NCBI RefSeq assembly: GCF_945952365.1
Contig: NZ_CAMFHX010000028.1
Coordinates: forward strand, 1 to 33,293
Source: an uncultured Cetobacterium sp.
GTDB lineage: Bacteria > Fusobacteriota > Fusobacteriia > Fusobacteriales > Fusobacteriaceae
DNA: 33,293 nt
Reading direction: 5' to 3'
Positions within the stretch are counted from its first letter, which is position 1; the number at the start of each line of letters is the position of its first letter. Below, in pieces: positions 4,837-31,936 of this stretch. A program made the translations under genes and the position numbers. The notes beneath the pieces were generated by a model that had not been told where the DNA came from, did no database searches, and saw only the letters and a list, made by a program, of their open reading frames with translations.

Positions 4837-4870
4837 AAAAAAACCAACTACACAAAAAAAGTGTAGCTGG
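4837..4870 (-). terminator. Riboswitch expression-platform terminator
   Basis: On the minus strand CCAGCTACAC (4870-4861) pairs with GTGTAGTTGG (4853-4844, one G-U pair) around a T7 loop and is followed by seven T (4843-4837). Its 5' arm is the last part of the c-di-GMP aptamer, so aptamer and terminator should exclude one another. Confidence 0.85.
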
Positions 4871-4935
4871 CTGTCATTTTAAAGACCCTGTAGCTTTGCG
4901 TCATAAGATTTCTCTTATTTTGCCAAAATATAAAT
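4861..4935 (-). ncRNA. Cyclic di-GMP-I (GEMM-I) riboswitch aptamer
   Basis: Read on the minus strand, it shows the GEMM-I landmarks in order. GGCAAA comes first, then a hairpin of six pairs (ATAAGA/TCTTAT) capped by a GAAA tetraloop. GACGCAAAGC with the conserved CGCAAAGC core follows, then a second stem-loop (GGGTC with GAC) and AGCCAGC at the 3' side. The GAAA loop and the opposite internal loop are the known tertiary contact of this class. It lies about 70 bases before the DUF4402-like gene. Confidence 0.88.
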
Positions 4936-13626: not shown

Positions 13627-13655
13627 TTGACATTTAAGAAAAAATATGACATAAT
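13627..13655 (+). promoter_or_regulatory. Strong promoter of the leader/transporter unit
   Basis: TTGACA (13627-13632) and CATAAT (13650-13655) are 17 bases apart, so the -35 is perfect. Transcription would start near 13662, just before the leader ORF ribosome-binding site. Confidence 0.85.
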
Positions 13656-13682
13656 AGTTTAAAATTAGAAAGGGAGGACAAA

Positions 13683-13751
13683 ATGAAAAATATAGCAATT
13701 AAAGAAATCAAATTTAATAATGTACTCCTATTACTGGCAGACTTACTGTAG
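13683..13751 (+). CDS. 22-residue Leu-rich leader peptide
   Basis: A GGGAGG site is followed by ATG at 13683 and a 22-codon frame ending in NNVLLLLADLL. Six of the last eight codons are Leu (CTC, CTA, TTA, CTG, then TTA, CTG after Ala-Asp), and the frame stops at TAG 13749-13751. This is the layout of classical ribosome-mediated attenuators such as those of leucine operons. Control codons sit at the end of a short ORF and overlap the left arm of an RNA hairpin. Two terminators and then an NSS amino-acid transporter follow. That leucine is sensed is inference from the codons. Confidence 0.65.
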   Translation: MKNIAIKEIKFNNVLLLLADLL

Positions 13752-13840
13752 CAATTGTGTTTATGAAAATAATGTAGAAAAAACTACATGGAATCATAGA
13801 TGCAATTGCGTTTTACGTTGTTCATCTGTGAGGGCCAGTA
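13732..13840 (+). ncRNA. Long nested hairpin of the transporter leader
   Basis: Paired segments nest in order. TACTGGC (13732-13738) pairs with GCCAGTA (13834-13840), CTTAC (13742-13746) with GTGAG (13828-13832), and GCAATTG (13751-13757) with CAATTGC (13803-13809). ATGA (13763-13766) pairs with TCAT (13794-13797), and GTAG (13774-13777) with CTAC (13784-13787). The outer left arm is made of the last leader codons, so a ribosome on the Leu codons would block it. It has no T-box or known riboswitch core. Confidence 0.6.
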
Positions 13841-13862
13841 GTTTATTGATAAATAAATGGAG

Positions 13863-13891
13863 ACCTCATAATAAAAATATGAGGTTTTTTT
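13863..13891 (+). terminator. Leader terminator 1
   Basis: ACCTCATA (13863-13870) pairs with TATGAGGT (13878-13885), followed by seven T. It would stop transcription before the transporter. Its right arm can instead pair with AAACCTCAT at 13904-13912. Confidence 0.85.
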
Positions 13892-13903
13892 AATCCTAGG
13901 TCT

Positions 13904-13937
13904 AAACCTCATATTAATTTATGGGGTTTTTATTTTT
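13904..13937 (+). terminator. Leader terminator 2
   Basis: AAACCTCAT (13904-13912) pairs with ATGGGGTTT (13921-13929, one G-U pair) and a T-rich run follows. The left arm is also complementary to the right arm of terminator 1 (13879-13887), giving a 1-2, 2-3, 3-4 choice. Confidence 0.75.
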
Positions 13938-13986
13938 ATAAAATTAGAACTATTAATTTAAAATAAAAGCGATTTAGGAGGATTTT

Positions 13987-15462
13987 GTGGAAGAAAATAG
14001 AGAGCAGTGGAGCTCAAAGATGGGTTTTATTATAGCAGCAATAGGATCAGCAGTTGGTCTTGGAAATATATGGAGATTTCCTTATGTAGTTTATTCAAAT
14101 GGTGGAGGTGCATTTTTAATTCCATATTTTGTAGCAATATTTACAGCAGGAATTCCATTGTTAATATTAGAATATGGAGTTGGTCATAAATATAGAGGTT
14201 CGACACCTCTTTCACTGTTTAGAATAAATAAAAAATTTGAGTGGATGGGTTGGTGGCCAATTATAAGTTCTGGAATTATACTTTGTTATTATTCATTAGT
14301 TCTTAGCATGGCAATGAAATACTTGACGCTTAGTTTTACTAAAGGATGGGGAGTAGATTCAAATAGTTATTTTTATAATGATTTTTTAAATATTTCAAGC
14401 TCACCTTTTGATTTTAAAGGGATTAATAGTCATGTATTAGTAGGAATTATAGCTATTTGGATGATAAATTGGTTTATTTGTTATAAGGGAATAAAATCTG
14501 GAATTGAAAAATATAATAAAATTTTATTACCTTGTTTATTAATAATTGTAATGATTATTGTGATTAGAGGGGTTACTTTAGAAGGAGCAACTCTTGGATT
14601 GAATACTTTATTTACTCCTGATTGGAGTAAGCTTAAAAATCCAAAAGTTTGGATTGCAGCTTATGGACAAGTATTTTTCTCTCTTAGTGTTGGAACAGGA
14701 ATAATGATGACATACTCAAGCTATCTACCTAAGAAAACAGATATCAACAACAGTGCGTTTATGACAGCTTTTGCTAACTGTAGTTTTGAATTTATATGTG
14801 CTATTGGAGTATTTTCAATACTGGGAGTTATGGCTTTTTCTTCAGGTGTTCCAGTAAATGAAGTTGTTAGCAGCGGTATTGGATTAGCTTTTATAGCATT
14901 CCCTAAAGTTTTTTCTCTTATGGGAATCTGGGGAAATATACTTGGAGTTTTATTCTTTATGTGTTTAACATTTGCAGGAATAACCTCTGCAGTTTCATTA
15001 GTTGAAGCTATATCAGCAGCGATAGTAGATAAATTCAATATTGAACGTAAGATTGTTGTTACAAGAATATCTATCTGTGGATTTTTATTGAGTATTATAT
15101 TTGCAACAAATAGTGGTCTATACATTTTAGATATTATGGATAATTTTATAAATAACTATGGAATTGTAAGTGTAGGATTGCTAGAAAGTTTTGTAATAGG
15201 ATGGTATTTAAATGCAGATATTATTAGAAATCATACGAATAGTATCTCTTATATTAGAATAGGTTCTTGGTGGAATATTATAATAAAATATATAACTCCT
15301 TTATTTTTATTTTTAATCTTGATTCAAAGTATATTTAATGAGTTTAAAGCACCGTATGGAGGTTATTCAGGATGGGCTTTGACAGTTTACGGATGGATTA
15401 TTATTTTAATTGGGATTTTAGGAGCTATAATATTAAGTAAAAAAACATGGAAGAGTAATTAA
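13987..15462 (+). CDS. NSS-family sodium:amino-acid symporter (MetP-like large subunit)
   Basis: This 491-residue LeuT-fold transporter imports an amino acid with Na+. Membrane segment 1 has the signature GSAVGLGNIWRFPYVVYSNG (18-37) with its unwound substrate and sodium site. Segment 6 (FFSLSVGTGIMMTYSSYL) is also typical. Length and about 12 segments fit the MetP type rather than the shorter 11-segment Tyt1 type of Fusobacterium. A MetS-like 30-residue gene follows. The start is GTG at 13987, with AGGAGGA 4-5 bases upstream; no ATG is well placed. Expression is probably set by the attenuator before it. MetP moves methionine and alanine, but the Leu-rich leader hints at a branched-chain substrate. 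The substrate is unproven. Confidence 0.9.
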   Translation: MEENREQWSSKMGFIIAAIGSAVGLGNIWRFPYVVYSNGGGAFLIPYFVAIFTAGIPLLILEYGVGHKYRGSTPLSLFRINKKFEWMGWWPIISSGIILCYYSLVLSMAMKYLTLSFTKGWGVDSNSYFYNDFLNISSSPFDFKGINSHVLVGIIAIWMINWFICYKGIKSGIEKYNKILLPCLLIIVMIIVIRGVTLEGATLGLNTLFTPDWSKLKNPKVWIAAYGQVFFSLSVGTGIMMTYSSYLPKKTDINNSAFMTAFANCSFEFICAIGVFSILGVMAFSSGVPVNEVVSSGIGLAFIAFPKVFSLMGIWGNILGVLFFMCLTFAGITSAVSLVEAISAAIVDKFNIERKIVVTRISICGFLLSIIFATNSGLYILDIMDNFINNYGIVSVGLLESFVIGWYLNADIIRNHTNSISYIRIGSWWNIIIKYITPLFLFLILIQSIFNEFKAPYGGYSGWALTVYGWIIILIGILGAIILSKKTWKSN

Positions 15463-31733: not shown

Positions 31734-31770
31734 AATGAGTTATAAAAGTATTGGAGAAATTAAATATTAA

Positions 31771-31922
31771 AATTTTTAGGTGCTTCGGCATAACAAGGAA
31801 GTAGGTGAGATTCCTACGCAGCCTCCGCTACTGTAATGAGGATGAAACTATATTAACCACTGGATATTTCTGGGAAGGATAGGAGTAAAATGATTCTAAG
31901 TCAGGAGACTTACCTAAAAATT
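31771..31922 (+). ncRNA. Cobalamin riboswitch
   Basis: The conserved elements appear in order. A closing stem AATTTTTAGGT (31771-31781) pairs with ACCTAAAAATT (31912-31922). GGTGC comes next, then AAGGAAG, TAGGTGAGATTCCTACG, and the B12 box GCAGCCTCCGCTACTGTAA. CCACTGG, GGGAAGG, and AAGTCAGGAGACTTACCT complete it. This is the adenosylcobalamin-type architecture. It ends 35 bases before the start of the next gene; no terminator lies between, so control is more likely translational. Usually B12 lowers expression. Confidence 0.95.
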
Positions 31923-31936
31923 ACACAAAAATTGTT

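Follow-up and report, generated by a model that had tools for sequence, protein, structure and literature searches.

A Leu-codon leader before an NSS transporter gene of Cetobacterium as a putative, recodable ribosome-mediated transcription attenuator

In the enterobacterial trp, his, leu, ilv and phe leaders, a ribosome stalled at the control codons of a leader peptide picks one of several mutually exclusive hairpins, with an intrinsic terminator as one outcome. Firmicutes are usually portrayed as users of T-boxes and riboswitches. Leader-peptide systems are nevertheless described in this group: in Peptostreptococcaceae, a His-run leader precedes the his operon together with a terminator and an antiterminator (Ashniev et al., 2022; PMC9413887), and the S. 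aureus ilv attenuator has a Leu-rich leader peptide (PMC5794164), although it controls a biosynthetic operon and its sequence was not compared with ours. The histidine attenuators were reported for his only, without a link to Leu, Phe, Tyr, Trp or Pro versions or to the trpB motif (RF04312). This motif, found in Firmicutes and Fusobacteria before amino-acid genes, was published as a strong riboswitch candidate, with a classic attenuator not ruled out by the authors (Narunsky et al., 2024; PMC11109978). Leucine T-box leaders also sense tRNA-Leu, but they bind it directly, have no leader peptide and are an unrelated RNA.

Here we describe a leader in a 33,293-nucleotide stretch of DNA (the window) from an uncultured Cetobacterium sp. 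In the absence of expression data, we consider it very likely that this leader acts as a ribosome-mediated transcription attenuator, with charged tRNA-Leu as its signal and an NSS, probably leucine, importer under its control. Ribosome-mediated attenuation itself is old and its his branch is published, but there is strong reason to regard the window leader as a new, recodable variant. Unlike in the enterobacterial leaders, one scaffold is reused with different codons, the codon arm pairs with the antiterminator strand, and two or three terminators are broken in a cascade. The Rfam models of the enterobacterial leaders did not match this family at cut-off, the proteobacterial-type His_leader model (RF00514) reaching at best 31.0 against a cut-off of 49 (locus L189). 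No description of the Leu, Phe or Tyr versions or of the terminator cascade was found in the open-access literature searched.

The leader locus and its pairing scheme

The sequence-only reading had proposed a promoter, a Shine-Dalgarno (SD) sequence, a 22-codon ORF with six Leu codons among its last eight, a long nested hairpin and two terminators, and all of these were found where it had placed them (Table 1). The leader peptide ends in LLLLADLL, and the short ORF, with an SD sequence before it and a series of control codons for a single amino acid, is what is expected of an attenuator. The fold of the whole leader (-76.7 kcal/mol, z = -5.5) was not equalled in stability by any of 100 shuffled sequences. 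A pattern scan returned a single terminator-like site, terminator 2 (T2) at 13904-13929, with 0.1 expected, while terminator 1 (T1, 13863-13891) was evident from sequence and folding. No Rfam model matched the leader stretch at cut-off. The only Rfam matches in the window, both away from the leader, were a cobalamin and a c-di-GMP-I riboswitch, at 31761-31931 (+) and 4859-4934 (-), respectively.

The reading had also predicted control of the import of leucine or a related amino acid. That the gene encodes an NSS protein was confirmed (PF00209, E = 4.7e-113, 379 bits against a Pfam cut-off of 27; LeuT, E = 2.8e-59). Leucine is the probable substrate, but this is inferred, transport not having been shown, and LeuT-like NSS proteins differ in what they carry.

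Table 1. Features of the leader and the downstream gene, in window coordinates
Feature	Position	Strand	Basis
Sigma-70-type promoter TTGACA-17-CATAAT, extended -10 (TG before -10)	13627..13655	+	consensus only, 11/12 positions
SD GGGAGG of leader ORF	13672..13677	+	sequence; SD also before leader ORF in relatives
Leader ORF MKNIAIKEIKFNNVLLLLADLL and stop, 22 codons	13683..13751	+	leader end conserved in 20 Leu-type loci
Regulatory Leu codons CUC CUA UUA CUG	13725..13736	+	CUC at 13725-13727 is the inferred stall codon (codon 15)
Codon arm A (UUACUGGC)	13731..13738	+	pairs with 3' part of arm 3; helix 96-99% paired, compensatory changes including in the window
Arm 1, begins at last base of stop codon	13751..13758	+	1:2 helix 97-100% paired, up to 5 pairs with double changes
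Arm 2	13794..13810	+	partner is arm 1 or arm 3, both covary
Arm 3, antiterminator 5' strand	13817..13841	+	2:3 94% paired; 3:4 95.8% paired
Arm 4	13858..13872	+	partner is arm 3 (ON) or arm 5 (T1)
Arm 5 and U tract	13877..13891	+	with arm 4 forms T1 (13863-13891); 4:5 94.5% paired, covaries
Conserved UCCUAGG spacer element	13894..13900	+	shared by all 20 NSS leaders of the Leu type and by many other leaders
Arm 6	13904..13917	+	5:6 96.2% paired, covaries
Arm 7 and U tract	13918..13937	+	with arm 6 forms T2 (13904-13937)
SD AGGAGGA of transporter gene	13976..13982	+	sequence
Regulated gene, NSS (SNF, PF00209) amino-acid:sodium symporter	13987..15462	+	PF00209, LeuT match, clostridial orthologs

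Seven RNA arms follow the leader ORF and can pair either as 1:2, 3:4 and 5:6 (ON) or as 2:3, 4:5 and 6:7 (OFF, with two terminators). The mutual exclusion of 1-2, 2-3 and 3-4 pairings proposed from sequence alone was upheld but refined, from four arms to seven exclusive arms and an additional pairing of the codon arm with arm 3. Two terminators are correct for the window, and some Leu-type relatives have three.

Covariation supports most of these helices. Across 22 sequences, A:3 combined with 2:3 was 95.0% paired with 7 pairs doubly changed, and A:3 combined with 1:2 was 96.7% paired with 8; for neither combination did any of 500 shuffles match the doubly changed cells or the covariation score, and pairing dropped to 22-44% in slid controls. 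The A:3 helix of the window itself carries two compensated changes (UUAGC/GCUAA to CUGGC/GCCAG), and a three-way change at locus L009 preserves both 1:2 and 2:3. For the terminator region, arms were taken from alignment A4, an automatic search based on U tracts having missed many T1 sites. In 40 two-terminator sequences, 4:5, 5:6 and 6:7 were 94.5, 96.2 and 97.0% paired with strong covariation, and the inter-terminator pairing 5:6 covaried about as well as the terminators themselves; part of its conservation may stem from T2 being a copy of T1. The 3:4 helix was 95.8% paired compared to at most 48% when slid. No double compensatory changes in 3:4 were found in the alignment, and a swapped-arm energy test on this helix showed no locus specificity, consistent with its low variation. 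Thus, the mutually exclusive, covarying antiterminator and terminator helices expected of an attenuator are present, with the exception that 3:4 lacks double changes.

We also noted that the UCCUAG(G) element between T1 and T2, invariant in the window and many relatives, is often complementary to the SD sequence of the gene in NSS loci, yet it is kept where the SD is not complementary. The complementarity of UCCUAG as an anti-SD was not locus-specific.

Ribosome position and the proposed mechanism

In the mechanism we propose, when leucine is plentiful the ribosome would reach the stop codon and cover arm 1, allowing 2:3 to pair and leaving 4:5 and 6:7 free to form two successive terminators. 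If charged tRNA-Leu is scarce, the ribosome would stall at the CUC codon, covering arm A and exposing arm 1, such that 1:2, then 3:4, then 5:6 would form and both terminators would be broken in one cascade. Without translation, A:3 would favor termination. Leucine is inferred to be the signal because of the control codons and because an orthologous NSS gene is preceded by a T-box (see below); stalling, read-through in the cell and the timing of both are likewise inferred and have not been observed.

The geometry and folding agree with this scheme computationally, as do conservation, covariation and the tracking of codons with genes. With the ribosome edge set, by assumption, 15 nt past the first base of the A site, a ribosome with its A site at CUC ends just beyond arm A and short of arm 1, whereas one at the stop codon covers arm 1. 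In stepwise folding as arm 4 emerges, a ribosome at codons 15-18 gave 9.3 bp of 3:4 and no 2:3, while a ribosome at codon 21 to the stop codon gave ~12-13 bp of 2:3 and only 2-4 bp of 3:4. In the stalled state, 10.3 bp of 5:6 formed as arm 6 emerged. The same was seen across 122 related leaders, where 5.3 of the 6 nt of the antiterminator core were paired in the stalled state compared to 0.2 at the stop codon; the switch ran in the expected direction in 114 of the 122 and was reversed in none. This test is partly independent of how the leaders were found, because the model used to find them (R2) contains A:3 and 2:3 but not 1:2 and 3:4. When 14 nt of arm 1 were shuffled, pairing in the stalled state fell from 4.9 to 0.4 bp and the computed switching was lost; shuffling the arm 4 region lowered this pairing from 4.9 to 1.6. 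By folding only, then, the stall position leads to the antiterminator and the stop position to the terminator, as an attenuator requires. It counts against the scheme that, even with a stalled ribosome, the antiterminator has to compete with the terminator at equilibrium; the switch must therefore be kinetic. A further point against it is that Leu codons 21 and 22, near the stop codon, would yield the OFF state if the ribosome paused there. The attenuator interpretation of the sequence-only reading is thus supported by the conserved Leu/CUC leaders, the covarying alternative helices and the folding with ribosome position, with the response to leucine inferred.

Conservation, origin and exchange of control codons

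At 17 clostridial loci and in a sister fusobacterial species, orthologous NSS genes are preceded by a leader that shares its end, CUC codon, stop codon, arms and tandem terminators with that of the window. Eighteen leaders align across the whole core, and the CUC codon as well as core bases of the stop boundary and of arms 1, 2 and 3 are invariant in this alignment. All 20 Leu-type leaders that were read terminate in a Leu run, with similar peptide ends (e.g., RVLLLLAELI and NNLLLLANL), and all 20 contain CUC, a codon used for only 14 of 855 Leu codons (1.6%) in the genes of the window. A leader ORF or Leu codons not conserved in relatives would have refuted the attenuator reading; the leaders read gave the opposite result, and the alternative helices covary.

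The relatives had been expected in Fusobacteriota and were instead mainly in Clostridia. A covariance model of the leader (R1) detected it in 17 clostridial genomes and in only 2 of 98 fusobacterial genomes, ruling out a home of the Leu type in Fusobacteriota. The NSS protein, encoded in a host genome of 2.5 Mb, shares 74-76% identity with its clostridial orthologs, ~50% with the closest other proteins of its own family and 95% with that of one sister species, and it is nested in a clostridial clade of the NSS tree with support of 100/99. Given the tree position, the identities and the distribution of the leader, we infer that gene and leader were likely transferred together between phyla. An ortholog in a Ruminococcaceae MAG (L013), which nests in the Leu clade of the same tree, has a T-box instead of such a leader. 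Its specifier is apparently CUC, by our own reading of the codon after GAA in the specifier region.

Beyond what the sequence-only reading proposed, the leader belongs to a larger, recodable family. Weak R1 matches in the same genomes proved to be the same scaffold with different codons. A general model (R2) matched in 42 of 71 genomes of the family of Romboutsia and 43 of 207 of the family of Clostridium but only 9 of 391 class-wide, and approximately 130 loci were read for leader codons. Leu leaders precede the NSS clade of the window. Phe or Tyr leaders are found before BrnQ-like genes and the other NSS clades, ABC permeases of the CD0873-operon type have Phe, Tyr or Val-rich ones, and hisZ is preceded by His leaders. 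The codon type (Leu, Phe or Tyr) requires 6 changes on the NSS tree, compared to a minimum of 4 and a shuffled mean of 36.3. A single RNA arm (UUUAGC) can encode Leu-Ala or Phe-Ser by a one-base shift of frame. Since one scaffold occurs with different control codons ahead of different amino-acid genes, the codon run would set the amino acid sensed.

One operon in a Clostridioides-like genome lies behind a YYYYYSHYF leader, and its binding protein matches 6HNI (E = 3e-198), a CD0873-type protein that binds tyrosine (PMC6816091). At locus L226 (Clostridioides-like, G514 C1:1046500-1056200), two aromatic ABC operons adjoin, one of the CD0873 type with a Tyr leader and one with a Phe leader; from its leader, the paralogous operon is predicted to encode a phenylalanine rather than a tyrosine transporter. 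Genes annotated as BrnQ (e.g., L126:1723-3009) fit the branched-chain carrier model TIGR00796 yet carry Tyr/Phe leaders; judging by these codons, it is possible that their substrate is aromatic and the annotation misleading. Mixed control codons (LYYHHHR) were seen before hisZ-like genes at two loci (L197 and L200). The genome of the window itself has a second copy of the scaffold (L255, contig C5:40622-40742), with a His-run leader (MSQLFVNLNTLHHHHRY and stop) before a gene for a family-3 ABC amino-acid binding protein.

The trpB motif resembles the downstream half of this scaffold: its P1 corresponds to 2:3 and its P2 to T1, and our loci have its layout (P1 hairpin, GGCU, P2 terminator) and align with it over its full length (1-107). 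The RF04312 model, however, has no leader ORF or arm 1, and all loci here fall below its cut-off of 59 bits (34.8 for the window, 54.7 for the best relative). No member above cut-off was found in 884 sampled genomes. When RF04312 matches were read in Fusobacteria, a leader ORF was in place at 30 of 30 loci; most showed a plain codon run, and in a few no more than one or two codons matched. The leaders carried Pro codons at PutP genes, Trp codons at TrpX, aromatic codons at DAHP synthase and His codons at genes for binding proteins. PutP, TrpX and DAHP synthase were identified by matches to curated models that exceeded the cut-off, and a curated match also supports hisZ behind His leaders. Newly read clostridial matches also had a leader ORF, except L266, which we judged a false positive. 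We conclude that our loci are related to the trpB motif in layout and sequence without being formal members, and that attenuation probably explains the motif, an inference for the motif as a whole. Several loci also appear to be of the Peptostreptococcaceae his attenuator type.

Alternative explanations and implications

A metabolite-binding riboswitch, in which an amino-acid-related ligand would be bound by the RNA itself and the small ORF would have no role, has in its favor the published candidacy of the trpB motif and the matches of our loci to RF04312 at 35-55 bits. Against it, there is no conserved unpaired core, one scaffold serves Leu, Phe, Tyr, His, Trp and Pro genes with the codon run as the changing part, and arm 1 adjoins the stop codon of the leader; the authors of the motif could themselves not exclude an attenuator. 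We consider a riboswitch very unlikely. There is similarly little room for nascent-peptide arrest, in which the peptide sequence rather than charged tRNA-Leu would stall the ribosome, possibly together with an antibiotic or metabolite. The ends of the Leu-type peptides are indeed similar, but the similarity comes largely from the codon arm UUAGC, which is bound to pair with arm 3 and is read in another frame as Phe-Ser in other members, and the identity of the codons follows the downstream gene.

The remaining alternatives are all but excluded. The T-box of the L013 ortholog, with its apparent CUC specifier, makes tRNA-Leu a plausible signal for the NSS gene, but a T-box or other tRNA-binding leader is contradicted by the lack of any match to the RF00230 covariance model in the window or the related leaders scanned. 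A free small RNA like the E. faecium sRNA_2410 family (RF02863, annotated as a free sRNA in Rfam) is suggested by two scaffold members that match that model above cut-off (L100, 68.0; L128, 62.4). Position, leader ORF and terminators indicate a cis leader, however, and sRNA_2410 was observed as two transcripts (PMC5593968), which two successive terminators could produce.

Under the preferred attenuator reading, a bolder interpretation also appears likely: the trpB-motif riboswitch candidate, the clostridial his attenuators and E. faecium sRNA_2410 would constitute one reprogrammable family of ribosome-mediated attenuators across Clostridia, Fusobacteria and some Bacilli, in which new control codons, even those that arise when one arm is read with a shifted frame, re-target the switch to genes of Leu, Phe, Tyr, His, Trp, Pro or mixed aromatic type, with tandem terminators released jointly by a domino of pairings. 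This would provide a testable replacement for a published riboswitch candidate and spare the search for a ligand, and Firmicutes would have a widespread, ribosome-read alternative as modular as T-boxes. Substrates could be predicted from leader codons alone: the NSS clade of the window would take Leu, the BrnQ-like and remaining NSS clades Phe or Tyr, and the transporter of the ABC operon adjoining the CD0873-type one Phe. If the one-family interpretation is true, the leader would name the substrate of many unassigned transporters.
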